Positions 17,384-36,697 of a stretch of DNA of 64,000 bases are shown here, piece after piece. Source of the stretch: Clostridia bacterium (GTDB taxonomy: Bacteria > Bacillota > Clostridia > Christensenellales > CAG-138); the NCBI GenBank assembly GCA_017514685.1, contig JAFWJN010000032.1, positions 49,547 to 113,546 on the forward strand. Reading direction: 5' to 3'. The notes under the pieces are model-generated. The model did no database searches. It was not told the origin of the DNA and saw only the letters and a list, made by a program, of their open reading frames with translations. The position numbers and the translations under genes were made by a program. Each line of letters begins with the position of its first letter. Positions within the stretch are counted from its first letter, which is position 1.

Positions 17384-17416
17384 TTAGATCTCCTTATATA
17401 ATGATTAAACGATGCA

Positions 17417-17695
17417 TTATTTATCCGGTTTAATGGATATTCCGACAATCGTGAGCACGCCTCCGAAAAGTGCTGAGAAAAAACCTAACATGCCTCCATC
17501 TGAATCACGGGGCTTCTCTTTCAGATATTGAACGTCGTTTCCATAATACCATCCGTCGGAGCCTTTATAGACTTTATGATAGGAACCAATCTCATAATCT
17601 CCGGAACCGGAAAAGCCTTTAAAGCAGCCGATTGTCCCGAACAGCAGTAAGCAGATGCCGACAATAATCATAATTGTGGAAATTGTTTTTCTCAT
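17417..17695 (-). CDS. Small two-pass membrane protein
   Basis: 92 residues with two hydrophobic segments (about 5-28 and 69-88) separated by a Gly/Tyr-rich polar loop (YHKVYKGSDGWYYGNDVQYL). The start follows AAGGAGATAA. It lies 33 bases upstream of the lipoprotein on the same strand, so they may be co-transcribed. No family recognised. Confidence 0.6.
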   Translation of the reverse strand: MRKTISTIMIIVGICLLLFGTIGCFKGFSGSGDYEIGSYHKVYKGSDGWYYGNDVQYLKEKPRDSDGGMLGFFSALFGGVLTIVGISIKPDK

Positions 17696-17936
17696 TATTT
17701 ATCTCCTTCTTTTTTTCAGGTCGATTAGAATCAAGGCAACTATTATCTGTAAGCATTATCTGTCGGACAGATATTTTTTTGTCTATCGTATGCCATATTC
17801 TTATACAAATTATGGTAGCATTGAGACCCGGAAAGTAAAGGACACGGAATGGGAATTCCCATGAACAGAATGGACAGTTTGCGAGAATCCGGGCGGAATA
17901 CTGTTAATCAGGAAAATATAACAAGCTTGCAGGTAT

Positions 17937-17974
17937 AAAAAACTAAGAAGGTTGTTTAAACAGCCTTCTTAGTT
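17937..17974 (-). terminator. Terminator of the 12-gene sugar operon
   Basis: AACTAAGAAGG (17941-17951) and CCTTCTTAGTT (17964-17974) form an 11-bp stem, and on the minus strand the stem is followed by a T run (complement of 17937-17942). It lies 80 bases past the stop of the TPI-like gene. The rest of the gene-free stretch from 17696 to 18054 shows nothing else I can support. Confidence 0.85.
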
Positions 17975-18054
17975 GGTGGAGGAAGTATGAAGAAGATAAG
18001 TGCTTTTTCAGGAGATTTAATTCATGCTTTGATTTTATGTGAATGCTTATTAGT

Positions 18055-18837
18055 CTATACCGATCTGGCTGCGAGCGCCATACGGATTAACTGATTGAAA
18101 TTCACAGCATTCCAAGCGCTTCTGCCAATGAACAAACCGTTCAGGCCGGGACATTGCGCCAGATCAATAGCATTATTGTTGTTAACGGAGCCGCCGTAGA
18201 AAATCGGGACATCCGGTCCGAGATCATGGAATAGTTCGGATAATTTGTGACGGATAACCTTTACCCGCTCTTCCACATAGTCGCAGGTAACCGGTTTGCC
18301 GTTGACGCCGATTGCCCAGACAGGTTCATATGCGATCCATATTCGACCAGCTTCCTCCGGCTTGATTTCCGAAAGATCTTCGGACAGTTGCTGAATCAGT
18401 ATGTCATCAGCTTTTCCGACATTCTTTTCCTGTTCGGTCTCGCCGATGCACAGAAGACAGATCAGACCGTGATCCAGAGCACACCGGACCTTCTTCCGTT
18501 CCATCTCATCGGTTTCCAGAAAGACATGCCGTCGTTCGGAATGACCGACCATAACCAGGTCGCAGCCGACTTCCTGCAGCATAAGAGGGCTGATCTCTCC
18601 GGTATACTGACCTTTTTCCTCCCAGCCCATATTCTGTGCGCCGAGTTTGAGAAGATCCGGATTCCGATGGCGGTTTGCCTGGTCCAGCGTTGTATAGCTG
18701 GGAATAACAAACAGTTCAAAAGCGTCTCTTGAGAGATCCTCCGTATATTGGCACAGATCGGAAACAAAAGAATTCGTTTCCGCGATGGTTTTATACATTT
18801 TGGTGTTTGTACCCATGTACCACTTTTTGCACGCCAT
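18055..18837 (-). CDS. Triose-phosphate-isomerase-like ketose-phosphate isomerase
   Basis: 260 residues of the TIM family with catalytic residues in place: K13 (GTNTKMYK), H99 (VGHSERR), E171 (AYEPVWAIG) and the phosphate loop FYGGSVNNNN. It differs from glycolytic TPI at the first motif (usual NWKMN). TPI paralogues next to DhaK-type kinases and RpiB-type isomerases (EryH/LerI) convert L-erythrulose 1-phosphate to D-erythrulose 4-phosphate; the same trio occurs here, so that role is inferred. Plain TPI activity remains possible. The start at 18837 has GAGGAA upstream; an upstream extension lacks a ribosome site. Last gene of the operon, 25 bases after the kinase. Confidence 0.85.
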   Translation of the reverse strand: MACKKWYMGTNTKMYKTIAETNSFVSDLCQYTEDLSRDAFELFVIPSYTTLDQANRHRNPDLLKLGAQNMGWEEKGQYTGEISPLMLQEVGCDLVMVGHSERRHVFLETDEMERKKVRCALDHGLICLLCIGETEQEKNVGKADDILIQQLSEDLSEIKPEEAGRIWIAYEPVWAIGVNGKPVTCDYVEERVKVIRHKLSELFHDLGPDVPIFYGGSVNNNNAIDLAQCPGLNGLFIGRSAWNAVNFNQLIRMALAARSV

Positions 18838-18862
18838 ATTCTTTCCTCTGATTGTCCTGCCG

Positions 18863-20557
18863 TCAATCCGATATCCGGCTTTTGGTATAGTATGGGCTGG
18901 AGCAGGGCATGTCATAATACTTTTTCAGTTCATCATCAATTTTCAGAACAGAGATTGATGCGCCCGCCATTTCCATGGTGGTGACAAGGCTGTTGACATC
19001 CATATCATGCACGACAAGGCCTGCTTCTTCACAGAGCATTGCCAGTTTGCGGTTCAGAATCATCAGTTCCATCAGCGTCGTGCTTCCGAGTCCGTTGACA
19101 TAAGTGCAGATGACATCACCCTTTTTCAGGTTACCCTCTTCGACAATCCGAGAGAACAGGCTGGTACAGATCTCGTCGGCGCTCTGCATTTTGATCCGTT
19201 TGATCCCGGGTTCTCCGTGAATGCCGAGCCCATACTCCATCTCGTCTTCCGGGAGGGTGAAGATAGGTTCTTTCTGCCCCGGAATCGTTGCTCCTTCCAG
19301 GCCGATTCCAATCGAATACAGATTGTCTCTGGCTTTTTCCGTTACACGGAAAGCTTCCTCAAGAGAAAGTTCTGAACAGGCTGCCCCAGCAATCTTGATC
19401 ATAAGGACATCGCCGGCGATTCCGCGTCGGTCCGTGATCCTTTCGGCAGGAGCGGACGCGATATCATCCCATACGCGGACGGTTTTTGTCTGGATCCCTT
19501 TTGCCGCGAGAATCTCCGCTGCTTTATCAAAATTCAGATTATCACCGGTATAGTTCCCGTACAGGAACAGGACACCGGCACCCCGGTCTGCGGCTTCGGA
19601 CACCTTGCAGATTGTTTCCGGGTGCGGGGCTGCAAAGACGTTTCCGTTGGCTGCGCAGTCCGCCAGATTCTCCCCGATAAAGAATCCAAACATCGGTTCA
19701 TGACCGGATCCGCCTCCGACCAGAAGCGCGGTTTTTCCTTCGGGGATTACTTTTTTCACCAGTCCGTTTACTCCGGGAACTGCTTTGATGCTCTTGCCGT
19801 ATGCGTAAAGGAATCCTTCGCTTTCCTCCTTTACGACATCCTCCGGACGGTTAATGATTTTCTTTTTTGATTCCACATCGGCTCTGACAGCTTCTTCCTT
19901 TTTCTCGATTACCGGATCGGGGGTTTCATTGCCGGTGACAAAATCGGCCATTGCCGTAAACAGCAACCATACGCTGGTTGCACCGGCATCCTGATGGCCT
20001 TTGGCTCTTTCGCCCAGATTTTTTGCACGTCCGTATTTTGCAACATACTCCTTTGTTTTCTCAAGACCTTCCAGAGAAGCTTTTTTCGCTGCTTTTAGCA
20101 ATTCCTCGAAGGACCCCATATGTTCCGACATGGCGCGGACTGCTGGAGCCAGGGCGTCGACCATCGTTTTGTCGCCCTCTTTCGCATGGCCGATCCTCTG
20201 AACGGATTCAAGACCTGACCGGAAGTGTTCATACAGCATCTCCGGGGAAAGGCAGGATGCAGGAGGCTGATTCTTTGCGTTTCCGGAGAACATGGAGGAG
20301 AAGATCATGCCAGAAGCACCGCCCATGGTGTTTTCCATTGCCTGTCCGGTTTTTGAGAACAAAGCATAGATGTCCGAACCGTCTGATTCTTGATCCAAGA
20401 CCTTTCGGACCGCGATCATGCCGTTCTTCATGCCGATTCCGTGGTCTCCATCGCCGATTGCGCCGTCTATTTTCGCAAGGTAAAGCTCATTGCGGATGAT
20501 TTTATCCGCGCAGGCATAAAGCATATTCTTAAGGCTTTGATAATCCATTTGATTCAT
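18863..20557 (-). CDS. Fused DhaL-DhaK ketose kinase (dihydroxyacetone kinase family)
   Basis: 564 residues. The ATP-binding DhaL domain comes first (about 1-210; Mg/ATP motif DGAIGDGDHG at 31-40), then the substrate DhaK domain (about 245-564; GGGSGHEP at 281-288, GNYTGDN, and H447 in GLGIHGEPG, the His that forms a hemiaminal with the ketose carbonyl). Canonical ATP-dependent DHA kinases have the opposite order, DhaK then DhaL. Single-chain ATP-dependent kinases of this kind also phosphorylate erythrulose (LerK/DerK), which fits the flanking isomerases. The start is the ATG seven bases from GGAGGA; an upstream frame lacks a ribosome site. Confidence 0.88.
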   Translation of the reverse strand: MNQMDYQSLKNMLYACADKIIRNELYLAKIDGAIGDGDHGIGMKNGMIAVRKVLDQESDGSDIYALFSKTGQAMENTMGGASGMIFSSMFSGNAKNQPPASCLSPEMLYEHFRSGLESVQRIGHAKEGDKTMVDALAPAVRAMSEHMGSFEELLKAAKKASLEGLEKTKEYVAKYGRAKNLGERAKGHQDAGATSVWLLFTAMADFVTGNETPDPVIEKKEEAVRADVESKKKIINRPEDVVKEESEGFLYAYGKSIKAVPGVNGLVKKVIPEGKTALLVGGGSGHEPMFGFFIGENLADCAANGNVFAAPHPETICKVSEAADRGAGVLFLYGNYTGDNLNFDKAAEILAAKGIQTKTVRVWDDIASAPAERITDRRGIAGDVLMIKIAGAACSELSLEEAFRVTEKARDNLYSIGIGLEGATIPGQKEPIFTLPEDEMEYGLGIHGEPGIKRIKMQSADEICTSLFSRIVEEGNLKKGDVICTYVNGLGSTTLMELMILNRKLAMLCEEAGLVVHDMDVNSLVTTMEMAGASISVLKIDDELKKYYDMPCSSPYYTKSRISD

Positions 20558-20684
20558 TGCAGCTTCCTCCGTTTTTTCCGCTCTGTCAATGTCAGCGGCT
20601 TTTTTCATGCTTTTCCATACAGAATTCATCAAAAATGAAACAGAACACTTCTCTTAACAGGAACAGGTCCGTTTCCAGCAGGAC

Positions 20685-21128
20685 TCAGACGGAATGTTCC
20701 TTCTCATATTCTGTGATGGCGTTTACTTTGGGAACAGAACGGCTCTTCCAGTCGAACTGTCTTTCAAGATATTCTTTGATCATAACTTTTGCCGATTCGA
20801 TTCCGACGACCTGCGCGCCGAGTGTGATGATATTCGCGTTATTGCTCAGTTCCGCCCTCTGTGCTTGGTAGATATCTGAGATGCAGGCAGCATAAGCGCC
20901 TTTCACTTTGTTCGCGGCGATCGACACGCCGATTCCCGTTCCGCAGAAGATGATTCCACGGTCCATTTTTCCGGCGGCGACATCTTCAGCAATCCGGATT
21001 GCGACATTCGCGTAGATCGGGTCATCGCTGCCATAATCTTTCACTTCATGTCCCAGTCCAGTTATGAACGGAATGATTTTTTCCTTGTATGCTGTTGCGT
21101 TGGGATCACAGCCGATTGCGATTTTCAT
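20685..21128 (-). CDS. RpiB/LacAB-type isomerase lacking ring-opening histidines
   Basis: 147 residues. The catalytic Cys62 (FCGTGIGVSIAANK) of RpiB is kept. Two His positions of E. coli RpiB are changed: GCDH becomes GCDP (residue 9) and the HND of the QHNDTN motif becomes SNN (S95). Loss of the ring-opening His fits a substrate that cannot cyclise, such as erythrulose 4-phosphate, the substrate of the EryI/DerI branch, which yields D-erythrose 4-phosphate. It stands between the isomerase-like gene and the kinase. The role is inferred; ribose 5-phosphate isomerase is the alternative. Confidence 0.85.
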   Translation of the reverse strand: MKIAIGCDPNATAYKEKIIPFITGLGHEVKDYGSDDPIYANVAIRIAEDVAAGKMDRGIIFCGTGIGVSIAANKVKGAYAACISDIYQAQRAELSNNANIITLGAQVVGIESAKVMIKEYLERQFDWKSRSVPKVNAITEYEKEHSV

Positions 21129-21152
21129 ATTATAATGCTCCTTATAGAATGC

Positions 21153-22631
21153 TCATTCATTGTCAAACGGATTTTCGTGGTCATAAAGCACGCCGCGAGG
21201 CCGGTTATAGGAGATATCCTGCACGGAGAGCAGATCCAGAACATTATAGAGAAGTTTTCCGAAATGCCCGAACGCGACGGCTCCATGATGTGGGAAATGT
21301 TTTTCGATCAGAACATACCGATAAAAACGGTCCATTTCTCTGATTGCAAAGATGCCGATGCCGCCAAAGGATGCCGTATTCACTGGAAGAACTTCTCCCT
21401 GTGCGATATAAGCCTTCAGGGTGCCTGAGGGGTCGGCATGCAGGCGGTAGAATGTGATATCGCCCGAGACGATGTTCCCTTCCAGAGTGCCTCTGGTGAA
21501 ATCAGGGTCTCTGCCGTTTTCAAGGTTTCTGTTCTGAATCAGCATGTATTGCATGCTGCTGTTGCAGAGCTTGCAAGCAGGGGTGTTTCCGCAGTGGAAA
21601 CCCATGAATGTTTCTTCCAGGCGGTAATTGTACCTGCCAGCGATATGCTCGCGGAACATGGACTCGGGGACCGTGTTGTTGATATCCAGGAGGGTGACTG
21701 CGTCGTTGGACAGGCAGGCTCCGATATATTCTGACAGCGTGCCGTATATATCGACCTCGCAACCGACCGGTATGCCTCTGGATGCCAGTCTGCTGTTGAC
21801 GTAGCATGGCTCAAACCCGAACTGGACCGGAAAAGCCGGCCAGCATTTATTGGCAAAGGCAACATATTCGCGGGTGCCTTTATTTTCTTCCGCCCAGTCC
21901 AAAAGCGTCAGTTCATACTGTGCTAACCGGTTCAGTATCTGAGGATAGGTATTGCCGCTGCCAAGTTCCTGTGCCATGTCGGCAGCAACTTCCGGGATGC
22001 GCGGGTCATCGGCATGATTCTGAAACGCCACATACAGATCCAGCTCGGAGTTTTCCTGAATCTCAACGCCGAGGTCATAGAGACCCTTGATTGGGGCGTT
22101 GCATGCAAAGAAATCCTGAGGTCTTGGACCAAAGGTGATGATCTTCAGATTCCTGACGCCGATCAGAGCACGTGCGACCGGAATGAATTCGCGAATCTTA
22201 TCTGCCAGTTCTTTTGCGTTTCCGATCGGATATTTGGGGATATAGGCTTTCAGATGACGAAGCCCGAGATTGTAGGAGCAGTTCAGAAGACCGCAGTAAG
22301 CATCTCCGCGCCCGTGCCTCAGATCGCCGTCACCTTCCGCCGCCGCAACATACATGCAGGGACCGTCAAACATCCTTGCAATCAGTGTCTCCGGAGTTTC
22401 CGGACCGAAATTGCCCAGAAACACCGTCAGCGCGTTGCATCCAGCGTTCTTTATGATTCTGACAGCCTCCACAGCTTCTTTTTCGTTTTCCACGATGATT
22501 TCACATTCGAAAATATCATCCGCATATTCCCGGACAATGGCTCTGCGGCGTCTTTCAGCCAGTTCCCTTGGAAAGCAATCCCTTGAAACTGCGACCAGTC
22601 CCATTTTGATCTGAGGTATATTTCCTGCCAT
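21153..22631 (-). CDS. L-fucose/L-arabinose isomerase-like protein
   Basis: 492 residues from the ATG that follows GGGGAGGAAA. The fold is that of the fucose/arabinose isomerase superfamily: an N-terminal Rossmann-like half (MGLVAVSRDCFPREL), then metal-site candidates in the C-terminal half including E in GCEVDIYGTLSEYIG, D in LLDINNT, and H in FMGFHCGNT. These enzymes interconvert aldoses and ketoses with a divalent metal. As the first of four sugar enzymes before a ketose kinase, it probably makes the ketose that DhaLK phosphorylates. A C5/C6 sugar is usual for the family, but the downstream enzymes suggest a C4 or related substrate. Confidence 0.75.
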   Translation of the reverse strand: MAGNIPQIKMGLVAVSRDCFPRELAERRRRAIVREYADDIFECEIIVENEKEAVEAVRIIKNAGCNALTVFLGNFGPETPETLIARMFDGPCMYVAAAEGDGDLRHGRGDAYCGLLNCSYNLGLRHLKAYIPKYPIGNAKELADKIREFIPVARALIGVRNLKIITFGPRPQDFFACNAPIKGLYDLGVEIQENSELDLYVAFQNHADDPRIPEVAADMAQELGSGNTYPQILNRLAQYELTLLDWAEENKGTREYVAFANKCWPAFPVQFGFEPCYVNSRLASRGIPVGCEVDIYGTLSEYIGACLSNDAVTLLDINNTVPESMFREHIAGRYNYRLEETFMGFHCGNTPACKLCNSSMQYMLIQNRNLENGRDPDFTRGTLEGNIVSGDITFYRLHADPSGTLKAYIAQGEVLPVNTASFGGIGIFAIREMDRFYRYVLIEKHFPHHGAVAFGHFGKLLYNVLDLLSVQDISYNRPRGVLYDHENPFDNE

Positions 22632-22717
22632 CTCTGTGTTTCCTCCCCTGGTTTTTGGATTGTGCGTCGGTCTTTTGTTATCTGGAATGAAAAGCGAATC
22701 GATATGATTCACACCAT

Positions 22718-24529
22718 TTATCCGAGTTCATTTTCCTTTTTGCTTTTTGGAATGTTGATTTCGATACAGGTACCGAACTGCGGTTTGCTGAATATATGCA
22801 GAGAACTGTTCTCTCCATATCTGAGTTGTACCCTTCTCCAAGTATTCATCAAGCCAATACTATTGTTATAACCTTCCAATTTGTCTTCTTTTGATTGCTC
22901 CTGTAAAGTTCGGAGTTTAGCGGAATCGATTCCGACACCGTTATCCAAAGCACGGATACGAACAGTGTCACCTTCATCGCATATTTTGATTCTCATTTTC
23001 AGTTGCCGGTCGGTTGCCCTAGCATGCTGAATACTGTTTTCGATAAGTGGCTGCAGAATCAGCCGCGGTATTCTGCAGGAAAGAATGACACCTTGTACCT
23101 GTTGGGAATAACTGATCCTGTCGCCGAGACGGTTCTTTTGAATGTCAATATAGGCTTGAATCGAACGAAGCTCTTCATCAATGGATACATCATCGCCGGG
23201 ATTTTCAAGTGCATATCGCAGCAGACTGGACAATCCGAGAATCATATTGGAAGCTTCATTAGGTTTTCCGGTATAGGAAATGGTCTTCCAGTAAATGGAA
23301 TCCAAAGTGTTATATAGAAAATGAGGATTAATCTGTGCCTGAAGAGCCTGCATTTCCAGAATGGAGGTTTTGACTTTATTGTTTGCCAGATGAACCTGCG
23401 CGGACTCGTATTCCACTACGGTTTTCATCAGACTGTTGTAAACTCGGCTGTAGAGATCTCCGTTTCCATCATATTCCTGCGGGATGATTTTCTCCCCTGT
23501 TTTATTCGCGATCAGATCGAGAATATATCTGAGATTACGATATTCCAAATCAGTTTTTCGGATTGAGAAGAAAAGAGCAACCGCAACCGCAATCGAAACA
23601 CATAGGAGCGAGGCCAGCAACATCAAGAGTGACAATTGATAAATGCTCTGATACGGAGTCAGAACATAACAGTAAATAATGCTGTCATCCACCTGTTCCT
23701 GCAGCACATGATAACGCTTTGTTGCGATTAGTCCTTCGATTGTTTCATCCGTCCAGGAGAGCCGGTAGAATTCATCGTTTCCTACGACAATCTCCTGCTT
23801 ATCATTTGTTACAATGAGAAGGCTGTTCATTGGATTGTCTAGTTTGGAGAACTCTCTTTCTATCATGGACCTTTTTATATTCACAACCACATAACCAGTC
23901 TTTACAGTACTTTCCTGCAGACCGATGCGCAGTACGTAAGTACTCAGTCCGTCCTTGCCAGGGAATCTTCCGTCATCAGATGCATCAGATATAATCATTC
24001 GTTGCCGGGGTTCCGAACTGTCAATAATCCAGTTTAACCATTCACGATCTGTCTGAGCTGCATATGGAAAGCCGGTTGGTTGGCTCGACAGATACTGATC
24101 TTCCACACCTTCGAAACAGATATAGATAGCATCTGCATACTTGTATGCATCTCGGTTTGATTCCAACGTGTTCAGCACATCACGAATTCGGCGATAGTCT
24201 GAGTAAGTATGTGGCCCCTGTCGCATCATCAGCATCAGTTTCATCTGAATGACGATAGACGGGTTGTTGCTCAGGGTGATCCCTTGGTATTCAGCCACGT
24301 GAGCGACTTCATCCACGATGTTTTTCTCATGCAGGAGCATGTTCTGCGCAGACGATTTACTCAGTTCTTGCATGCTGAAGAAGGTGATGGTGATAAAGGC
24401 AATGCAGACGAGCGTTATCGGCAGGACACTGCCCAGCAGCTGGGAGACGATATTCTCGAGAAAAAACTTTTTCCGGATTTCGTCATTCTTTTCGATTCTT
24501 TGCTCTGTATTCTTCCGGCCCGATTCCAT
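22718..24529 (-). CDS. YesM-type sensor histidine kinase
   Basis: 603 residues. One membrane helix at about 30-52, an extracellular sensor region (about 55-300), a second helix (about 302-325), a linker, the His_kinase domain with the phosphoacceptor in QINPHFLYNTLDSIYWK, and a HATPase domain (N box ENSIQHA, G box DNGVGID, and YGENSSLHI). This class senses extracellular sugars, often with an ABC binding protein, and pairs with YesN-type regulators. Its start lies inside the response-regulator gene (47-base overlap), so the two are coupled. The stop is 86 bases before the isomerase-like gene. Confidence 0.92.
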   Translation of the reverse strand: MESGRKNTEQRIEKNDEIRKKFFLENIVSQLLGSVLPITLVCIAFITITFFSMQELSKSSAQNMLLHEKNIVDEVAHVAEYQGITLSNNPSIVIQMKLMLMMRQGPHTYSDYRRIRDVLNTLESNRDAYKYADAIYICFEGVEDQYLSSQPTGFPYAAQTDREWLNWIIDSSEPRQRMIISDASDDGRFPGKDGLSTYVLRIGLQESTVKTGYVVVNIKRSMIEREFSKLDNPMNSLLIVTNDKQEIVVGNDEFYRLSWTDETIEGLIATKRYHVLQEQVDDSIIYCYVLTPYQSIYQLSLLMLLASLLCVSIAVAVALFFSIRKTDLEYRNLRYILDLIANKTGEKIIPQEYDGNGDLYSRVYNSLMKTVVEYESAQVHLANNKVKTSILEMQALQAQINPHFLYNTLDSIYWKTISYTGKPNEASNMILGLSSLLRYALENPGDDVSIDEELRSIQAYIDIQKNRLGDRISYSQQVQGVILSCRIPRLILQPLIENSIQHARATDRQLKMRIKICDEGDTVRIRALDNGVGIDSAKLRTLQEQSKEDKLEGYNNSIGLMNTWRRVQLRYGENSSLHIFSKPQFGTCIEINIPKSKKENELG

Positions 24530-25220
24530 AGTACCTCTTAAAGCTCCGCGTAAAGTTTCTCGGATGTGAATAGCCCAGTTCCTCGCTGATCTGCTTGACC
24601 AGTATATCTGTCCAAATTAGATAATCCGCCCCTTTTTTCATCTTCTTGCGTGTAATGAAGGCGGAGAAGTTTTCATTGAATAGCTTCAGAAAGTAGGAAC
24701 TGAAGTAATAGGGATTCATATTCATCATGTCTGCGACACTCTTCAGTGATACTGTCTTCAGGTTGTCATCGATATACCTGGAAATCTTTTCCTCAGCACT
24801 CGCTTCGGCTTCGGGGAATAAGTTCTTTGATTCGCCCGCTTTCTGGTCCAGTTCCGCCTTGATCTTTGAAAAAGTTTCCGTAATCTCTTCAAAAGAAGCC
24901 GGTTTCAGAATAAAATACTTTACGTTCATCTGCACGGCGGAATACGCAAACTCAAATTTTCTGTACGCGGTCAAAAAGACAATCTCTATCTTGGGATAGA
25001 GCTTCCGGCATTCGGCAGCCAGTGAAATGCCGTCTCCGTCCACCATCAGAATGTCGGTCAGCAGCACATCCACATCTTCATGCTCTTTTAAAAACTCCAG
25101 CGCAAGCCGGCCGCTTTCCGTCATACCGGCGATCGTGAACCCGATGGATTCCCATGGATAAAAATGAGCTAATCCCTCTCTGATTCCGGTCTCGTCATCA
25201 CAAAGCAAAACTCGATACAT
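24483..25220 (-). CDS. YesN-type response regulator with AraC DNA-binding domain
   Basis: 245 residues. Receiver domain (about 1-120) with acidic pair DDE at 8-10, phosphoacceptor Asp in LLTDILMVDGDG, Thr in FLTAYRKFEFA and Lys in YFILKP; C-terminal AraC-type double helix-turn-helix ending SFKRYYGIGPEEYR. The start follows GAGGAGGCGTT. It is preceded by a 116-base gap after the alcohol dehydrogenase, where an internal promoter could lie. It probably activates this operon in response to its sugar. Confidence 0.93.
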   Translation of the reverse strand: MYRVLLCDDETGIREGLAHFYPWESIGFTIAGMTESGRLALEFLKEHEDVDVLLTDILMVDGDGISLAAECRKLYPKIEIVFLTAYRKFEFAYSAVQMNVKYFILKPASFEEITETFSKIKAELDQKAGESKNLFPEAEASAEEKISRYIDDNLKTVSLKSVADMMNMNPYYFSSYFLKLFNENFSAFITRKKMKKGADYLIWTDILVKQISEELGYSHPRNFTRSFKRYYGIGPEEYRAKNRKE

Positions 25221-25336
25221 AACGCCTCCTCGGGGGTTGGGTTATTCGCTTCCGATAAAACAATAATAAACGAAAACCGACAGAATTGATATCATGAGTA
25301 GGAGGAAAAGCATCTATCGGTTTCGTTTTTACAATG

Positions 25337-26518
25337 TCAGACCGCCATCCGGAGAATAGTAATGATATCGCTTTTTTTCAGCTCTTCCAGATGACCGATG
25401 GTGTGTGTCTCATGATCCACAGCCCGGTCCGCTAGAAGATCGATGATTTCCGGGGAGGAGACGATACCGAGTTCACCGAGGCTGGTCGGGAGATTTACGC
25501 TTCTAAAGTGGCGGCAGAGCCGGTTGATTCCTTCCAGCGCGACAGCTTCTTTACAGGATGCATCAGCCGGCACGCCCATCACATTGACGGCAAAGGAATA
25601 GAAACGTTCCACATTTTTCGGCATGACATATCTTGCCCAGGAACCCCAGATCGCCGTTAAACCTGCGCCGTGAGGCACATCGAATTCACCGCTGATCTCA
25701 TGCTCGATGGTGTGGCATGCCCAGTCTCCGGTATGACCGCATCCGGTGATCCCGTTATGGGATAAGGTTGCGCACCACATGATCTGCTCCCGGATTGTAT
25801 AATCGTCCGGATTATTCTGAATGGTCGTCATGTAGCCCAGGATCTGGCGCATGAGCGTTTCCGCAACGGCATCGGTCAGAAGACAATCGAATTCGTTTGT
25901 GAAATAGCGCTCCATCGTATGCATGAAGATATCTGCACAGCCGATTTCTGTCTGCCGGAGGTTGAGCGATACGGTAAGGGAGGGGTCCAGAATGGAGAAT
26001 GTGCACCGGATGGCTGCGCTTTTGGTACTGCGCTTCAGATTCGTACGGTCATCGGTGATGACCAGCGCGTCCCATACCTCGCTTCCGGATGCAGGCATTG
26101 TCACAATGCTTCCGACAGGAAGCGCTTTCGAAATCCTTCGCGAAGTTGAGAAATAATCCCAAACGTCCACGGTTTCGTCCGCCAGCCCCGCGGCAACAGC
26201 CTTGGCGGTGTCGATGACACTGCCTCCGCCGATTGCAAGCAGAAAGTCAACTTCCGCTTCTTTTCCGACCTGGATTCCTTCGTAGACTCTTGACAGCTTG
26301 GGATTGGGCTCGATCCCGCCGAAAAGGATATAATCCATTCCAGCCTTTCCAACCTGTTCCGCAACGCTATCCAGAAGGCCGCTGGCTTTTGCATGCCTGC
26401 TCCCGTAGAGGATCATCACCTTTTTGGCATGATATTTTAATAACAGTTCACCGACATGCATCCATTCATTGGTTCCGAACCGGACCTCTGTCGGGAGAGT
26501 AAAAGTAAAGGACTTCAT
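25337..26518 (-). CDS. Iron-type (group III) alcohol dehydrogenase, BDH/YqhD branch
   Basis: 393 residues. NAD(P) site GGGSVIDTAK (about 97-106) and metal ligands in CADIFMHTMERYF (Asp, His), WACHTIEHEISG and FDVPHGAGL (His each). These enzymes interconvert primary alcohols and aldehydes or polyols. Two bases separate it from the preceding TIM-barrel gene, so it is co-translated. In this operon it could oxidise a polyol to the sugar acted on by the isomerase, or dispose of an aldehyde; the sequence does not decide. Confidence 0.9.
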   Translation of the reverse strand: MKSFTFTLPTEVRFGTNEWMHVGELLLKYHAKKVMILYGSRHAKASGLLDSVAEQVGKAGMDYILFGGIEPNPKLSRVYEGIQVGKEAEVDFLLAIGGGSVIDTAKAVAAGLADETVDVWDYFSTSRRISKALPVGSIVTMPASGSEVWDALVITDDRTNLKRSTKSAAIRCTFSILDPSLTVSLNLRQTEIGCADIFMHTMERYFTNEFDCLLTDAVAETLMRQILGYMTTIQNNPDDYTIREQIMWCATLSHNGITGCGHTGDWACHTIEHEISGEFDVPHGAGLTAIWGSWARYVMPKNVERFYSFAVNVMGVPADASCKEAVALEGINRLCRHFRSVNLPTSLGELGIVSSPEIIDLLADRAVDHETHTIGHLEELKKSDIITILRMAV

Positions 26519-26520
26519 AA

Positions 26521-28194
26521 TTATACACCGACTGCTTTCTCAGTAAGGGACGAAGCATCTGCCATCAGGGCATCCAGTTTGGTATAGTCCAGGCACCAGA
26601 CAACTTCATGCGCATAGGGTTTATGCCACACTTTGGCCTTTACTTCGTCGCGAAGAGGTTCAAGCATTTTAATGCTGTCCCTGACGCGTTTGGCATCCGC
26701 TTCCGACCCGGTGATTTCTGCGCGTCTGGTATAGTAAACCAGGTGCGCAATCTCACGGAACGTCCTGACATAGAGATCATAAAGATCAAGCAGGGTCTTG
26801 AGATACTCTTCAAACTCTTTGGAAACCCCGAGCGTTTCGGGTTTCAGAATGTCTGGAAGCTGACGCACCAGTTCGAGCGCTTCGTCTTTTTCCCGGAAGA
26901 TCTCGATCATGTTTTCTTCCGTCGGATCGACCAGCAGATGCGCATCCGGATCCCAGTAATCTCTGCTGTGGAAACGCTGCATCATGTTGAACGCAAGATC
27001 TACTTCATCAAAGAACTGGCAGTTTTCCTGGAAGACATGTCCCCTTGCGTAGATGGTCTTTTCCAGCACTTTCCATGATGTCTGCGTAAAGAGCTTCAGC
27101 CTTTCAACAGCATCCGGAGCTGTAGGATACTCCGGCAGCTGCACAATACAGTCCTGAATGAACGAGTTGTACAGACCGCATTTGTTGACCCAGGTCGAAT
27201 AGATCTCGTCTTCGCTGACATCCGGATTTTCCGTGATCATTGCGCCGGCGATGAGGTTCAGCATATTGAACGAATTGAAGGTGCTGCCTTCGGAAAGGAG
27301 TTCCCAGTCCGTCCGGAACCATGCGCCGGTTGCGCCTTTTTCCGCATACAGCTTCAGCCTTCTTTTGGTGTCTTCTACAAGACTGCAGGGGAAGACACCG
27401 ACACCGAAATACTGACCCCAGGTATCGAACTCGATCCATTCATCAAGACCGCCGCAGTTTCCGATGGCCGGGTTGTCAGGGAATGTCGGATAGTAGTCAT
27501 GAGGTGTTTTCTTCAGTGCCATGACGATATCCTTGGACACCGACTGCGCTGCTTCTACCATGGCATACTGGTGATCGGAAGTGTAGGCAAAGTCGCGGAC
27601 GACCAGCTTTTTACCGAATTTCTTCAGAGACTTGTACATGGCGGTGAGCAGTTCCCTGTACCAGGTGTCCATATTGTAGGACCTGCATCTTTCACACGTA
27701 CAGGCATTCGCAGCCATTGAAACCATGCTTTCCCTTGTGCCCGGGCTTACGATGACCCCAGTGAACTCCGGTACCAGTTCACAGAGTTCCGTATACTTTT
27801 TATCCAGGAAATCCCACCAGAACGGGTCTGTCGGGCAGATCGCCCCGTTTTCCTTACGCAGGTGCGGATAGATTTCGAGCAGATCAACCGGGAAGAACAG
27901 CTCTTTTACGTTGAAATAGAAGTCGATCCCGTTTTCGACGCACTTATGCGCGACCTGATTGATATAGTAACGGTTGTTTAAAAGAGTAATATCCCTTAGC
28001 GGCCATCTGTCCAACCAGACGTTTTTCGGGAACATCGAAAACGGAGGAATCAGTTTATCCACGATGTCGATATCGTGAAAGATCAGTGCGTTCAGATGAT
28101 ACTCTTTGATAAACTCGATTGACCGGTTTACTGCGGCCATGTGCCACATATTGGTTCCATGCATTTCAAGACCACGAAATTTGTATTCGCTCAT
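26521..28194 (-). CDS. Uncharacterised TIM-barrel protein, distantly alpha-glucuronidase-like
   Basis: 557 residues, cytoplasmic, no signal. The start has AAGGAG upstream. The N-terminal two thirds reads as a TIM barrel (NALIFHDIDIVDKLIPPFSMF; GVIVSPGTRESM; VVRDFAYTSD; DIVMALKKTPHDYYPTFPDN; EFDTWGQYFGVG), with faint resemblance to GH67 alpha-glucuronidases in the order of these motifs. A Cys cluster CTCERC follows the GTRES motif. The C-terminal 180 residues are helical. I cannot assign an activity; hydrolysis of a glycoside entering via the adjacent ABC importer is the natural guess. Confidence 0.6.
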   Translation of the reverse strand: MSEYKFRGLEMHGTNMWHMAAVNRSIEFIKEYHLNALIFHDIDIVDKLIPPFSMFPKNVWLDRWPLRDITLLNNRYYINQVAHKCVENGIDFYFNVKELFFPVDLLEIYPHLRKENGAICPTDPFWWDFLDKKYTELCELVPEFTGVIVSPGTRESMVSMAANACTCERCRSYNMDTWYRELLTAMYKSLKKFGKKLVVRDFAYTSDHQYAMVEAAQSVSKDIVMALKKTPHDYYPTFPDNPAIGNCGGLDEWIEFDTWGQYFGVGVFPCSLVEDTKRRLKLYAEKGATGAWFRTDWELLSEGSTFNSFNMLNLIAGAMITENPDVSEDEIYSTWVNKCGLYNSFIQDCIVQLPEYPTAPDAVERLKLFTQTSWKVLEKTIYARGHVFQENCQFFDEVDLAFNMMQRFHSRDYWDPDAHLLVDPTEENMIEIFREKDEALELVRQLPDILKPETLGVSKEFEEYLKTLLDLYDLYVRTFREIAHLVYYTRRAEITGSEADAKRVRDSIKMLEPLRDEVKAKVWHKPYAHEVVWCLDYTKLDALMADASSLTEKAVGV

Positions 28195-28212
28195 GTGTGT
28201 GTTACTCCTTGT

Positions 28213-28977
28213 TTATTCATTTAATATCCAGATTTGTTCTCCGTCATGTAAATGTCCGTATCTTTTTAATCCCTGCAGCTTATCATATGCAAAAGCGACA
28301 ATGGAATCGCAGTCGGCGTTTGCAACCTGATGGTTCGTCCCGGCTTTCATAGGCACGCATTCGCCTTTGACCAGCGGGAACTCATCGCCTTCGATCCTGA
28401 CCGTCACACTTCCTTTTGTCACGATATAGATTTCATCACACTCATGCCTATGGTAATCCATCTCGGATTCCCCTGCATGAAAGGTCATTGCGCTGAGGTT
28501 GACCAGATCTGACCAGAACGGCTTCTGATTCAGCCAGAACCAGGTTCTTGGTTTCAGAATGACGCTGTGAACAGCCGGAAGTTCATCCGAGCGCTGATAG
28601 CCGTCTTCATATCTTCCTTCCGGACCGATGAAGCGACGGATGCATTCCTCCGGTACAGCAATCCGTTTCTTTCGTTCTTTTCCCTGCAGCCGGTCACAGA
28701 GAAGCGCATATGTCAGAGGTTCTGTTACGCGCTCAATGCAGTGTGCATCCCCGGCTGGGATGGCAACGATGTCGCCGGCCGAGATTTCAAACAGCTGATT
28801 TTCGATCCTGATCTCAGCGCTGCCACCGGTTATGATGTAGTATTCATTCCAGTCACAGAAAGTATAGCTTTCTGAAGCTCCGAGCGGAAAGTCTCTGACC
28901 GCAACATCAGAATAGCGACACCAGTCCGGTTTTTCCTGTTTCCATTTCCAGCATGGAACTTTTTTATACTGATCCAC
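28213..28977 (-). CDS. Bicupin protein
   Basis: 254 residues starting at GTG after GAAAGGAAA. Two cupin domains: the first (about 35-95) with EYYIITGGSAEIRI and IPAGDAHCI, the second (about 170-235) with the metal-type motif HRHECDEIYIVTKGSVTVRI and KAGTNHQV. The second has the His-x-His-x4-Glu arrangement of a metal site. It could be a sugar or sugar-acid isomerase/epimerase or a sensor. It lies between permease and TIM-barrel genes, 18-21 bases from each. Confidence 0.8.
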   Translation of the reverse strand: MDQYKKVPCWKWKQEKPDWCRYSDVAVRDFPLGASESYTFCDWNEYYIITGGSAEIRIENQLFEISAGDIVAIPAGDAHCIERVTEPLTYALLCDRLQGKERKKRIAVPEECIRRFIGPEGRYEDGYQRSDELPAVHSVILKPRTWFWLNQKPFWSDLVNLSAMTFHAGESEMDYHRHECDEIYIVTKGSVTVRIEGDEFPLVKGECVPMKAGTNHQVANADCDSIVAFAYDKLQGLKRYGHLHDGEQIWILNE

Positions 28978-28998
28978 TTGGTTTCCTTTCGATTCTGT

Positions 28999-29874
28999 TT
29001 ATCCTTTTAATCCGGTCGTGGAAATACCTTCGACAAAATATCTCTGCATGATCACATAAAGAATGACAGGAGGGATAATCGTGCACAGTGTCATAGCAAG
29101 CACCTGATTCCAGATGATCAGGTCTGTGGAGTCCAGAGAAAGGCGCAAAGCCAGCGTAACAGGATACTTTTCCACACTGTTGATGTACAGCATATTGGAG
29201 AAAAAATCATTCCATCTCCAGACGAACTGCAGCAAAGCCATAGAAATGATGGAGGGTTTTGCCAGTGGGATCATGACTCTTAGAAAGACTCCGGCTGAAT
29301 TACATCCGTCAATGATGGCGGCTTCTTCCAATTCCTTGGGAATACCGCGGAAAAACTGCACCATCATATAAATGAAAAACGGATAAGTAGCAAAGCCTGC
29401 AGGAATGATGAAGGGTTTGTAACTGTCCAGCCAGCCGAGTCTGTTGTACAGCAGGTATCTGGGAATAATGAGAACTTGCTCCGGCAGTAACAGCATCCCC
29501 ATCATGATCGCAAACAGAATCTTTTTACCTTTGAAATGAAACCGCGCAAATCCATATGCAACCAGACAGCTGGAAGCAACCGTCAGGATCACGGTAGGAA
29601 TTACGAGCAGAAAAGAATTCAGAAAGTAGTTTGAATAGGTTAATCCGTTAACAGACTGCCAGCCTTTTTTAAATGCTCCGAAATCCCATGATTTCGGGAT
29701 CAGGCTCATCGAAGAAAAAATCTCAGTGTTATCTTTAAAAGCAGCGGTCAATAACCATATGACCGGGAAAATCATCATCAGGCAGACCAGAACGATGAAT
29801 ACATAGGAAAATGCTCTGCCGATGCGATTTTTGAACTTCGATAGATTGTTATACTTTAGATTATTCATTTTCAT
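28999..29874 (-). CDS. Sugar ABC transporter permease, MalG/UgpE type
   Basis: 291 residues, six membrane segments, first helix at about 18-40. The EAA coupling loop is visible (EEAAIIDGCNSAGVFLRVMIPLAKP). CUT1-family carbohydrate importer subunit. The start overlaps the other permease gene by 14 bases. No ATPase gene lies in this operon, so a shared MsmK/UgpC-type ATPase elsewhere is probably used. Confidence 0.93.
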   Translation of the reverse strand: MKMNNLKYNNLSKFKNRIGRAFSYVFIVLVCLMMIFPVIWLLTAAFKDNTEIFSSMSLIPKSWDFGAFKKGWQSVNGLTYSNYFLNSFLLVIPTVILTVASSCLVAYGFARFHFKGKKILFAIMMGMLLLPEQVLIIPRYLLYNRLGWLDSYKPFIIPAGFATYPFFIYMMVQFFRGIPKELEEAAIIDGCNSAGVFLRVMIPLAKPSIISMALLQFVWRWNDFFSNMLYINSVEKYPVTLALRLSLDSTDLIIWNQVLAMTLCTIIPPVILYVIMQRYFVEGISTTGLKG

Positions 29875-30754
29875 TAAATACCCAGAATTTAGAGGTTCCG
29901 AAGATAATGAGTGTTACCACCGCTATTATAAGGAAGAAGATCCAGGATAAAGCGGATGCATATCCCATCTTCATAAAGGAAAACGCATTATCATACAACA
30001 ACATGCTGTAGAGATAGGTTGATTTGAGCGGCCCACCGCCGGTGATAAGATAGGGCGCTGCAAATTCCTGGAATGCGTTAATTGTCTGCATGATAAGATT
30101 AAACTGAATAATGGGGCTGATCCCAGGCAGCGTGATCTTAAAGAAACAGGTAACTGCTCCGGCACCATCCATTTTGGCGGCTTCATAATAACTTCTCGGA
30201 ATCTGTTTCAGAGCAGCCAGAAACAGGACCATGGATGAACCGAACTGCCAGACGGCCAGAAGTGCTATGGTGAATGAAGCCATATTGGGACTGCCCAGCC
30301 ATGGAACAGATTTCAAACCGATTTTCGTAAGAAATGAATTCACCAGACCGCGTCCGCTGAACAGAGCTCTCCACAGAATCGCGACGCCAGCGCTGCCTCC
30401 AAGGACGGAGGGAAGGTACACGATTGTTCTGTAAAAGCCGATTCCTTTTAATTTCTGATTACACAAAACGGCAATAAAAAGGGCAAAACCCAGTTTCAAT
30501 GGAACAGTAATTGCAACATAAGCGAGAGTTGCAACCAAAGATTTCTTGAAATTCGGATCCTTGAAAATAGCCACGTAGTTTTGCAGACCGATAAAACGGC
30601 CGCCTGTCAACATGGATTTATCTGTAAACGATAAGACAAGCGAATAAAGAAATGGATAAAGTTGAAAGACAACTAATCCTATCATCCATGGTATCAGATA
30701 GACATATGCCACATGGCTTCTTTGATAATTATATGATTTTCTTTTGTGTTTCAT
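29861..30754 (-). CDS. Sugar ABC transporter permease, UgpA/MalF type
   Basis: 297 residues, six membrane segments, with the coupling loop YYEAAKMDGAGAVTCFFKITLPGISP. Forms the membrane pore with the following permease. Family CUT1. Spaced 96 bases from the binding-protein gene by a strong stem-loop. Confidence 0.93.
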   Translation of the reverse strand: MKHKRKSYNYQRSHVAYVYLIPWMIGLVVFQLYPFLYSLVLSFTDKSMLTGGRFIGLQNYVAIFKDPNFKKSLVATLAYVAITVPLKLGFALFIAVLCNQKLKGIGFYRTIVYLPSVLGGSAGVAILWRALFSGRGLVNSFLTKIGLKSVPWLGSPNMASFTIALLAVWQFGSSMVLFLAALKQIPRSYYEAAKMDGAGAVTCFFKITLPGISPIIQFNLIMQTINAFQEFAAPYLITGGGPLKSTYLYSMLLYDNAFSFMKMGYASALSWIFFLIIAVVTLIIFGTSKFWVFNENE

Positions 30755-30800
30755 TCTGACCGTCCATAGGATGTATTATTGGTTGATGGGTAAGGGTGCG

Positions 30801-30832
30801 CTGGGGTGCACACAATAAGATGTGCACCCCAG
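30801..30832 (-). other. Intercistronic stem-loop after the sugar-binding-protein gene
   Basis: Perfect 12-bp arms CTGGGGTGCACA and TGTGCACCCCAG with an 8-base loop, lying 19 bases past the binding-protein stop. There is no T run on the minus strand, so it probably blocks 3' decay and sets a high binding-protein:permease ratio rather than ending transcription. Confidence 0.7.
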
Positions 30833-30850
30833 ATAACAAACAGAGAGGAA

Positions 30851-32200
30851 TTATTTCAGTGTTGCGAGGATGGCATTCATAGCATCGATCGTCTGGCTGG
30901 CTGCTTTTTCAGGAGTCAGAACGCCGTATGCTACCTGATAGATGTAATCCAGAGCCGCTGCATTCAGCTCGGCGTTGGTATCAAATGGACCCTCAGCTGA
31001 TCCGGCATGTTTAGCTGCAACTGCGATACTTTCATTAATAATTGCATTGGTTACGCCATTTTGTTCGAGGAGTTTGGCAGCTTCGGTATTTGCAGGAATG
31101 CCACGCTGCAGACCAGAAATGGTGATAGCCTCTTCATCCTTCAAGAACCATTCGACAAAGTCCAGAGCTTCTTTCTGGTAAGGGGATGCTTTATTTACAC
31201 AGAGTAGCTGGGTTGGCATCATCGAGATACCGGTATCAGTTGCACCTTCCATAACAGGATACAACATGGTTCCAATCTCAAATGTAGAGTCGTTCAAAAC
31301 CTGCAGGGTGTTGGAGGCATACGTCATGCACATGCCCCACTGACCGTTCAGCCATTCCGGTACCTGGCTCGCATAAGCCAGACCTTCATAAACAACCAAA
31401 TCTTCAATGGGAGGAAGCGTGCCGGTGTCAAACAATGCTTTGACATAGTTGAAGTATTCTGTCAATTCTTCCACGGAGCAGGTGATTTTATAGTTTTCGG
31501 TATCGATCATGTGTTTTCCAGTGAGCTGCAGGATGTAGCTCTGCATGAAGGCGTTCAGGTTGTCGCTGTTTGCCCAGAGCAGATGACTGTTCGGATCAGC
31601 TTTGTTGACTGCTTCGCCGGCTTCAAGAATGGTTTTCCATGACCAGTCGTCGCTAGGAGTAAGATTGAATTTTTCAAAGAACTCTTTGTTGTACCACAGA
31701 GCTTTCACGTTAATACCGGTTGCAAGACCCATCACATAGTCTTTATTGCCGGCATATTCAGCAGGCATTTCAGCCCATGCAGAATAGTCGATCGGACCAT
31801 CCTTCATATTGAGGAAAGGCATTCCCTGCAGAACAATGTCAGATGCCCACTTGTAGTCTGCCTGGATAATATCCGCAGCTGTTCCACCGGACAGTTGAGT
31901 AAGCATCTTCTCATAGTAAGAATCCCAGCTGACCGGTTCACCGATTATGGTGATATTGGGATGCTTTGCCATATATGCATTGATCGCCTCATATGTGGCT
32001 GCATTTCTGGCGTCGCCACCCCACCATGTAAAGTGTAGTGTGATGTTCTCACTGTCAGATGAGGTCGCTGCTGCAGGAGCGTTATTCGCCGGTGTACCAG
32101 AGTCACTGTTAGATGCTGTATTACTGCTTGCGGGACTTGCACATGCGACAATACTCAGTACCATTAAGACAGCGATGACCAGTGCTAGTGCTTTTTTCAT
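30851..32200 (-). CDS. Sugar ABC transporter substrate-binding lipoprotein
   Basis: 449 residues. Signal with lipobox SIVAC (mature Cys at about 20), Ser/Ala/Asn linker, then a family 1 solute-binding protein: FTWWGGDARNAATYEAINAY, SWDSYYEKMLTQLSGG, DIIQADYKWA, and EALDFVEWFLKDEEA. Delivers an oligosaccharide or sugar to the two permeases. First gene of the 12-gene operon; its ribosome site is GAAGGAGAAG. The ligand cannot be inferred from sequence alone. Confidence 0.93.
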   Translation of the reverse strand: MKKALALVIAVLMVLSIVACASPASSNTASNSDSGTPANNAPAAATSSDSENITLHFTWWGGDARNAATYEAINAYMAKHPNITIIGEPVSWDSYYEKMLTQLSGGTAADIIQADYKWASDIVLQGMPFLNMKDGPIDYSAWAEMPAEYAGNKDYVMGLATGINVKALWYNKEFFEKFNLTPSDDWSWKTILEAGEAVNKADPNSHLLWANSDNLNAFMQSYILQLTGKHMIDTENYKITCSVEELTEYFNYVKALFDTGTLPPIEDLVVYEGLAYASQVPEWLNGQWGMCMTYASNTLQVLNDSTFEIGTMLYPVMEGATDTGISMMPTQLLCVNKASPYQKEALDFVEWFLKDEEAITISGLQRGIPANTEAAKLLEQNGVTNAIINESIAVAAKHAGSAEGPFDTNAELNAAALDYIYQVAYGVLTPEKAASQTIDAMNAILATLK

Positions 32201-32514
32201 GATAATCTTCTCCTTCTTTTGACTTTGATTATTTACTATATGATACGCAATCCATATCCTATATTATACTTATATTTTACTTTTGTCCTGAGCAATTCAA
32301 AAGTGACATAATTTTCATTTCTACATCTCTTTTTTTAAGATGATATTCTTTCAGCGAAAACAGCTTACCGACTCAGATGATTGATATTCACAAAACAAGA
32401 AACAGCTGTCATTTTCCAATTGTCAACAAACAGCAGACGCAGGTAATGAGTAAGGTACGGATAAAAATTTATAAATCTGGAATCATACAGTATCCGTTCT
32501 TTTTTCTGTTTAAC

Positions 32515-32544
32515 TTGATAGAGGGACAGTAGATGTGATATCAT
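32515..32544 (+). promoter_or_regulatory. Probable promoter for the E2-like/ligase pair
   Basis: TTGATA (32515-32520), an 18-base spacer and TATCAT (32539-32544), 24 bases before the start codon. The divergent region 32201-32514 is AT-rich; it carries a TATAAT on the minus strand (complement of 32263-32268) that may serve the binding-protein operon but has no clear -35 partner. Confidence 0.4.
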
Positions 32545-32567
32545 TACGATTGTGCAGGGGGAAAACA

Positions 32568-33482
32568 ATGCACAAAGAGTTTTTCAGGAAGGAAACCATA
32601 TCAATGGGAATTAAATGGGGAGACCGGCCGGGAGCCCGTTACGTCAAAGATGTTTCGGGACTTACGACCATAATGCTGCACCTTATGCCGAACAGGACGG
32701 AGAGCGAAGTCTATCTTGCCGACAAGCTCGACGCCACGGAAATCGTGAAGTTTATCGAAAAGAAGAACCTGGAGCACGATAACTATAAAACAACGATCTT
32801 TCACTGCGTTGTTTTCGCGATTGCGAAAATGATCAACGAACGGCCGAAGATGAACCGGTACGTCCAGGGACGCAGGATGTATGAGAGAAACGAGATCAGC
32901 ATGTCCTTTATGGCCAAGCGCCGTTTTGCAGACAATGCCGAAGAAGCTTTCATGTGGATCGTGCCCAAAGAAGACGACACGATCGACACGATCAGCCACA
33001 AGATCTACGGAGACGTTCGCGAAGTCCGCAAGAGCGAGCACGCAGACGGAGGATTCGACTCCACTGTGGAAGCGTTCTCCAAGATTCCGCGCCTGCTTCT
33101 CATGCTGGTGTTCAAAATCATCCGCTGGCTCAACTTCTGGGGCAGAGTCCCCAAAGCGCTGACGCAAGGGGATTCCAATCACGCGACCGTTCTCTTGTCC
33201 AACCTCGGGAGCATCGGGGGACCGCAGGTGTATCATCATCTGAACAACTATGGCACCAACAGCATTATGGTTACTGTCGGCACGCTGCATAAGGAAGAAC
33301 TGCTCATGCCGGACGGCACGAGACAGATGCGCGATGTCCTGGACATCGGAGTGACGATGGATGAACGGATCGGGGACGGATTCTACTTTGTCAGAAGCCT
33401 TAAGCTGATGAAATATCTGTTTGAGCATCCGGAACTACTGGACCGTCCGTTCAGCGAACCGAGTGGATTCGATTACAAGTAA
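32568..33482 (+). CDS. E2-like (CAT-fold) acyltransferase homologue without catalytic His
   Basis: 304 residues matching the catalytic domain of 2-oxoacid dehydrogenase E2/chloramphenicol acetyltransferase folds, but with no lipoyl or subunit-binding domain. Visible: KTTIFHCVVFAIAKMINERP, LLSNLGSIGG and the C-terminal motif DERIGDG (265-271). In active E2 proteins this last motif is DHRxxDG, so the general-base His is Glu here. The start is the ATG after GCAGGGGGAAAACA; a second ATG lies 13 codons on. It is followed after 15 bases by an acyl-CoA ligase, suggesting acyl transfer from a CoA thioester, mechanism unclear. Confidence 0.75.
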   Translation: MHKEFFRKETISMGIKWGDRPGARYVKDVSGLTTIMLHLMPNRTESEVYLADKLDATEIVKFIEKKNLEHDNYKTTIFHCVVFAIAKMINERPKMNRYVQGRRMYERNEISMSFMAKRRFADNAEEAFMWIVPKEDDTIDTISHKIYGDVREVRKSEHADGGFDSTVEAFSKIPRLLLMLVFKIIRWLNFWGRVPKALTQGDSNHATVLLSNLGSIGGPQVYHHLNNYGTNSIMVTVGTLHKEELLMPDGTRQMRDVLDIGVTMDERIGDGFYFVRSLKLMKYLFEHPELLDRPFSEPSGFDYK

Positions 33483-33497
33483 GCAGGGGGAAACAGA

Positions 33498-35228: not shown

Positions 35229-35269
35229 TCATTATTCAAAATATCTGATTCACTTATAGAAAATAAACA

Positions 35270-35313
35270 ATCCACTGGTTAACGTGAAAACGATGAGCCA
35301 GTGGATATTTTAT
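35270..35313. terminator. Bidirectional terminator between ligase and LacI genes
   Basis: ATCCACTGG (35270-35278) and CCAGTGGAT (35298-35306) with a 19-base loop, followed by a T-rich stretch on the plus strand and A-rich on the other side. Lies between convergent genes. Confidence 0.7.
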
Positions 35314-35348
35314 TGATTCAAATTATTGTCCGGTTAAGATGAGAATTA

Positions 35349-36692: not shown

Positions 36693-36697
36693 GATAT

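Follow-up and report, generated by a model that had tools for sequence, protein, structure and literature searches.

A twelve-gene clostridial operon that may feed a sugar conjugate into the L-erythrulose route to D-erythrose 4-phosphate

Which sugar would supply an operon that appears to end in the L-erythrulose route to D-erythrose 4-phosphate (E4P)? The question is raised by twelve genes at 18055-32200 on the minus strand of the window, the 64,000-nucleotide stretch of a Clostridia bacterium genome analysed here (assembly GCA_017514685.1, contig JAFWJN010000032.1, positions 49,547 to 113,546). A first-pass annotation described them as an operon closed by a clear terminator and encoding an uncharacterised pathway from an unusual sugar to E4P. 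All twelve frames are indeed open and adjacent, and the terminator folds at -16 kcal/mol. The pathway is uncharacterised in its feeding half, whose combination of genes is new here, whereas the closing trio of a kinase and two isomerases is already known (excerpts of PMC10733421) and recurs in Clostridia. The explanation that we tentatively favour, at a little under an even chance for the whole, is that a uronic-acid conjugate yields a C4 unit that enters the L-erythrulose module.

The kinase and isomerase trio

In Mycolicibacterium smegmatis, a kinase and two isomerases (LerK, LerI and DerI) convert L-erythrulose to E4P, according to excerpts of two reports (PMC10733421, PMC12780249). The last three genes of the operon encode an RpiB-like isomerase (20685-21128; LacAB_rpiB, 144 bits), a fused DhaL-DhaK (18863-20557; Dak2 and Dak1) and a triosephosphate isomerase (TPI)-like protein (18055-18837; TIM, 238 bits). 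These very probably form the same module, as first proposed from the letters, and the assignment is strong because it agrees with residue signatures and trees of both isomerases. The closest solved relative of the TPI-like protein is 11ef, an "L-erythrulose-1-phosphate isomerase" (192 bits), followed by an ordinary TPI (172 bits). Three features, a one-residue insertion in loop 6, the motif G-R-[SA]-A-W and a start of the form G-[ST]-[NS]-x-K-M, mark all 15 tetrose-type TPIs compared and none of 31 ordinary ones. The former set comprises two rhizobial erythritol-type loci, the R. etli OiaX/ApnL locus, a Pararhizobium TPI-RpiB pair, ten clostridial trio loci and the window, and the latter 29 TPIs from the order, the genome's own and that of E. 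coli. In the RpiB-like protein, serine replaces a histidine of ordinary RpiBs. All 19 tetrose-type or trio copies (window, 7 plasmid loci and 11 clostridial trio loci) have the serine and all 32 ordinary RpiBs the histidine (29 of them from the order, one from E. coli and two from the genome itself); RpiB copies were collected by tblastn. In both comparisons, resemblance to the window kinase guided the choice of the trio loci, and resemblance to the window RpiB or kinase that of the plasmid loci. Each set of 29 controls consists of the loci returned for best-scoring matches in 151 genomes, which biases it toward ordinary enzymes. The histidine of RpiB serves ring opening. Loss of this histidine would fit a tetrose role, since a tetrulose phosphate contains no furanose ring.

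Phylogenetic trees are consistent with these signatures. Two trio TPIs cluster with that of the window (support 100/100), and the window RpiB falls into one clade with eight RpiBs of trio loci and one of Cryobacterium (support 100/98), both window proteins standing apart from the ordinary copies. One ordinary TPI and two histidine-bearing RpiBs are encoded elsewhere in the genome, and therefore the operon copies look specialised. A further RpiB-like copy, in a sulfoquinovose-type cluster of the same genome, has isoleucine at the histidine position. The kinase keeps the GGGSGH, NYTGD and GIHGEPG motifs, which are taken as active-site motifs, and its substrate would be L-erythrulose. Three transketolase N-domain matches in the genome, one of them inside the sulfoquinovose-type cluster, are potential users of E4P.

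Known systems share the trio in part. Compared by description rather than by sequence, the tetritol catabolism of M. smegmatis (EltD, LerK, LerI and DerI) has the same kinase and two isomerase steps. However, EltD is a zinc-type dehydrogenase, and the window has none like it but a FucI-type isomerase, an iron-type alcohol dehydrogenase (Fe-ADH), a cupin, a GH67-like protein and a CUT1 importer. Rhizobial erythritol-type loci (FGGY kinase, glycerol-3-phosphate-dehydrogenase-like protein, TIM barrel, TPI and RpiB) have the TPI and RpiB signatures in common with the window but use another kinase and another dehydrogenase and lack a FucI-type isomerase.

The feeding half and its substrate

The gene at 26521-28194 encodes a 557-residue TIM-barrel protein, the only product among the domains listed in the first-pass annotation that the Pfam and NCBIfam scans left unmatched; the other named families, including YesM and YesN, were all found. 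The GH67 Pfam domains do not match it even at E up to 10, and alone it has no match among solved structures. However, a profile of eight sequences including the window protein matches GH67 alpha-glucuronidase chains at E 7e-5, and single members of that profile match GH67C (E 0.15) and GHL6 (5.6e-4). In the first matching stretch, Lys359, Asp364 and Glu386 of the Geobacillus enzyme align with K228, D233 and E255. These three are invariant in ten aligned sequences, as are E98, E155, R200, D257, R294 and D296; the catalytic acid and base of GH67 are carboxylates.

Near-full-length close homologues occur in five loci (L065, L066, L130, L131 and L132), two of which contain uronate-catabolism genes beside the homologue. 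L130 has UxuA, a mannitol-dehydrogenase-family oxidoreductase and a TctC-type transporter receptor, and L131 has an altronate dehydratase, KduI and the same two kinds of oxidoreductase and receptor. CUT1 importer genes lie near the homologue in L065, with YesM- and YesN-like genes, and in L066, whose 8.3-kb contig also carries a YesN-like gene. The L132 homologue adjoins GH43 and short-chain dehydrogenase/reductase (SDR) genes. L132 is a 4050-bp Pelagibacterium plasmid record that consists wholly of these three genes, and its unannotated homologue reaches the record edge. Because of the GH67 profile match and these neighbours, the 557-residue protein is probably an intracellular uronidase and a distant relative of GH67. 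Because uronate genes accompany two of the five homologues, its substrate may be a uronic-acid conjugate, for and against which we see an even balance. The unusual glycoside suggested in the first-pass annotation thus stands in outline, since a glycoside is probable, and is narrowed to a uronic-acid conjugate. In two distant genomes, the gene immediately after the GH67-like homologue belongs to the URO-D family (L065:10607-11692 and L130:9941-10948). URO-D family proteins can be corrinoid methyltransferases, and O-demethylation of a methylated uronate is conceivable from these neighbours.

The 557-residue protein is rare. It was found in none of 150 other close genomes, in 10 of 390 other genomes of the class at E 1e-3 (two over most of the length) and in 2 of 397 other genomes of the phylum at E 1e-20, the class and phylum samples overlapping. 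Two records of the plasmid collection match it, one over 94%, and no viral contig gave a pattern match. Among 11 genomes of the family of genome G503, it is present in G503 only.

The operon begins with the importer genes, which encode a 449-residue CUT1 solute-binding lipoprotein (30851-32200; SBP_bac_1, 84.9 bits) and two permeases (29861-30754 and 28999-29874; both BPD_transp_1). The importers beside the GH67-like homologues of L065 and L066 are related to it, with values of 32% and 37% for the binding protein, 54% and 59% for permease 1, and 47% and 57% for permease 2, respectively. Next to the permeases lies a two-domain cupin (28213-28977) with two Cupin_2 stretches and, by eye, a metal motif in the second domain. 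This bicupin occurs in 1 of 297 genomes of the order at E<=1e-20, namely its own, and in none of the plasmid records. The Fe-ADH (25337-26518; 143 bits) belongs to the YqhD/butanol-dehydrogenase branch, its best solved relatives being 7w9x, 1vlj and 6l1k, followed by YqhD, and it is the only dehydrogenase of the operon. A YesN-type response regulator with AraC output (24483-25220; Response_reg and HTH_18) and a YesM-type histidine kinase (22718-24529; His_kinase and HATPase_c) divide the run into two halves.

The trio's half opens with a FucI-superfamily aldose-ketose isomerase (21153-22631; Fucose_iso_C). Its E319, D343 and H476 align with E337, D361 and H528 of E. coli FucI, which we take to be the three metal ligands. 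The alignment with E. coli FucI was used because neither the protein nor its profile matched solved structures (E 0.1 and E 1). It shares PF02952 and these ligands with SftI/SqvD but is only 29% identical to the genome's own SftI-like protein. Its subfamily is present in 57 of 297 genomes of the order, own included, and the genome's second copy is 68% identical. In a tree of 14 sequences, branch length is 0.5 for the window copy and 0.05 for the second copy, and the window copy differs at ten columns that are invariant in the other thirteen. Because D-xylulose, sulfofructose and L-erythrulose share a 3S centre, a subfamily member that makes L-erythrulose is plausible, and the product of the window enzyme would be a C4 sugar. 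In loci L036-L050, a FucI-like isomerase recurs together with an FGGY kinase and DUF4867.

Taken in sequence, YesM/YesN would control a catabolic operon whose CUT1 importer takes up a conjugate containing a uronic acid. The GH67-like hydrolase would cleave it in the cytoplasm to free a C4 unit, the metal cupin perhaps aiding ring opening, and the FucI-type isomerase would turn an aldotetrose into L-erythrulose for the trio. The Fe-ADH may oxidise a tetritol to the aldotetrose or handle a by-product aldehyde. Domains, kept active-site residues, tetrose-type isomerase signatures and the distant GH67 relationship are read from the sequence itself, and the order of the upstream steps is our proposal. 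An aldotetrose or tetritol as the C4 source is possible though doubtful. The complete aldotetrose route, in which a uronosyl-tetrose or uronosyl-tetritol is imported, split by a new GH67-like family and passed through an L-threose or L-erythrose isomerase of FucI type to L-erythrulose for the E4P module, is somewhat unlikely as a whole.

Several observations weigh against this proposal. We know of no abundant natural uronosyl-tetrose or uronosyl-tetritol, although no dedicated search was made. The GH67 match consists of two stretches only, of 10 and 12 bits; the window protein is shorter than GH67 enzymes (557 as compared with 679-708 residues), and the position of GH67 E392 is occupied by glutamine in the six close members of the alignment of ten, the window protein included, and by glutamate in the four distant ones. 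The RpiB-like protein reaches 139 bits on the NCBIfam DerI model, below the cut-off of 240, and exceeds the generic RpiB subfamily model (151 as compared with 135 bits); the DerI model is rhizobial by name, and an RpiB that neighbours a Dha kinase in Cryobacterium fails it too (119 bits). Neither of the two TPIs beside Dha kinases on Cryobacterium and E. gilvus plasmids has the tetrose-type signature, so that neighbourhood alone is no proof of a tetrose type. The long branch and private changes of the window isomerase are not unique either, since L051 has a branch of 0.55 and 15 such columns. Among 20 loci of the isomerase subfamily, the second copy included, 7 have a DUF4867-type gene, 6 an FGGY-type kinase and 9 one or both; two of the DUF4867 genes and one of the kinases were checked with Pfam, and 7 of the 20 stretches are shorter than 15 kb. 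The window kinase or RpiB is matched in none of these loci, which gave one 33% TPI match. The usual substrate of the subfamily is therefore probably not a tetrose. In excerpts of PMC11968277, 434 of the 557 sequences of that study's largest DUF4867 cluster are assigned to aldose/ketose neighbourhoods, with PF02952 and FGGY among the families present.

Other substrates and pathways

Four other explanations can be set against the uronic-acid conjugate. In the first, two systems share one regulator: an aldouronate of the glucuronosyl-xylose type is taken up and cleaved, the FucI-like enzyme isomerises the pentose, and the L-erythrulose half is unrelated. The combination of CUT1 importer, GH67-like protein and YesMN resembles xylan aldouronate clusters, one GH67-like homologue adjoins a GH43 gene, and FGGY kinases accompany the isomerase subfamily in the 6 of 20 loci mentioned above. 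However, the operon has no pentulose kinase, and the isomerase gene lies in the trio's half, 24 bp from the RpiB-like gene, which leaves this explanation unlikely, though ahead of the other three.

In the second, a uronosyl-glycerol is split, the Fe-ADH oxidises glycerol to dihydroxyacetone, DhaL-DhaK phosphorylates it and TPI yields glyceraldehyde 3-phosphate. Fe-ADH, Dha kinase and TPI are the enzyme families on which this route depends, and an alpha-glucuronosyl glycerol would be a fitting substrate for a GH67-like enzyme. Nevertheless, it is improbable, as the TPI and RpiB carry tetrose-type signatures with ordinary copies elsewhere, the glycerol dehydrogenase model gives 32 bits on the operon for a cut-off of 336, and the RpiB-like and FucI-like proteins would have no role.

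The third starts from the branched C5 sugar D-apiose, which the FucI-like enzyme would convert to apulose for phosphorylation by DhaL-DhaK. The D-apionate locus of R. etli p42f (ApnL, OiaX; 1050 bits on the ApnL model as compared with a cut-off of 750) contains a TPI-like and RpiB-like pair of this type, and a Rahnella plasmid (L134) unites a FucI-like isomerase, an FGGY kinase and a split transketolase. This route is nonetheless decidedly improbable: the ApnL lactonase, OiaX decarboxylase and transketolase models matched none of ten operon proteins scanned, the two permeases lying outside the scan, and a tertiary C3 would bar the TPI-like shift, so that two isomerases would be idle. The Rahnella cluster also contains a CUT2 importer, and its kinase is glycerol-kinase-like. 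Literature searches on apiose with apulose, and on the isomerase with sulfoerythrose, turned up nothing.

A sulfoquinovose pathway of the sulfo-transketolase (sulfo-TK) type is hardly credible for the operon, which has no transketolase, because the same genome already carries such a cluster on contig C13, whose isomerase gives 379 bits over the whole SftI model, whereas the window isomerase reaches 55 bits over 221 residues (both below the cut-off of 700). In its favour, excerpts of PMC11968277 and PMC9594981 place PF02502, Fe-ADH (PF00465) and PF02952 proteins in such clusters, and nothing in the 19.9 kb read around the C13 cluster matched the window Fe-ADH. The C13 cluster (L109:5553-13763), probably of sulfo-TK type, comprises a GPH transporter, an SftI-like isomerase, a split transketolase, an RpiB-like protein and an EamA-type transporter, together with a YihQ-type GH31 (611 bits as compared with a cut-off of 553). 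Its gene content fits the sulfo-TK outline in excerpts of PMC9594981, apart from the unmatched Fe-ADH.

Transcription, distribution and significance

The twelve genes are likely to be transcribed together. The terminator at about 17937-17974 on the minus strand has z values of -5.1 and -6.2 in two runs, in each of which none of 200 shuffles folded equally well, and a simple pattern scan missed it because its stem has a mismatch. Homologues indicate likely starts at 22631 (FucI-like), 20557 (DhaL-DhaK) and 18837 (TPI-like). Several features nevertheless tell against a single transcript. With these starts, the binding-protein and permease genes are 96 bp apart, the Fe-ADH and YesN genes 116 bp, the YesM and FucI-like genes 86 bp, and the RpiB and DhaL-DhaK genes 127 bp; the YesN-YesM pair interrupts the run, and the gap from YesM to the FucI-like gene contains a weak hairpin with a run of T's after it (22712-22694; z -1.7). 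Neither promoter-like sites (27 as compared with 24.3 in shuffles) nor terminator-like sites (16 as compared with 17.7) are in excess, and an Rfam scan of 17000-37000 gave no match. Farther along the window, at 53469-61159, four adjacent minus-strand frames resemble by eye GH1, GH3, GH2 and a sugar transporter.

The neighbourhood search suggested in the first-pass annotation bore out conservation of the trio but not of the whole set. Exact peptide patterns of the kinase in the genomes of 84,980 species, which find close relatives only and returned several short contigs, gave 28 loci. By their titles, 12 are Lachnospiraceae, most others are further Clostridia or Bacillota, and two are Wohlfahrtiimonas. 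A TPI match is present in 17 and an RpiB match in 16 of them, both in 13 and at least one in 20. Their other neighbours vary: an RbsA-type ATPase (at least 37% identity) in 10, a zinc dehydrogenase at least 72% identical to that of L087 (itself included) in 4, an FGGY kinase (at least 48%) in 4 and a D-lyxose-isomerase homologue in 4. One has a 24% FucI-like match and one a 40% Fe-ADH match, and none has the 557-residue protein, the bicupin or the window binding protein. The trio is thus an ordinary clostridial module with different feeders. The complete set of twelve genes was seen once, which also tells against the proposal; no second instance appeared in 1851 genome look-ups (many of them of repeated genomes), the close-kinase pattern scan and the plasmid collection. 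The host assembly itself is incomplete (2,373,337 bases in 61 contigs, 82.6% complete).

In L073, L075, L076 and L094, a class II aldolase (64-100% to that of L073, itself included) and a D-lyxose-isomerase homologue lie near the Dha kinase. The same stretches contain TPI and RpiB in L073 and L075, TPI in L076 and RpiB in L094. Excerpts of PMC10733421 single out the presence of this kind of aldolase activity alongside LerI/DerI as deserving study.

The operon would add a GH67-like family for which Pfam has no model, and it offers a candidate importer, isomerase and kinase. Production of E4P by the L-erythrulose route needs no transketolase. According to excerpts of PMC10733421, a strain that selects for synthetic formaldehyde assimilation already makes use of E4P produced in this way.

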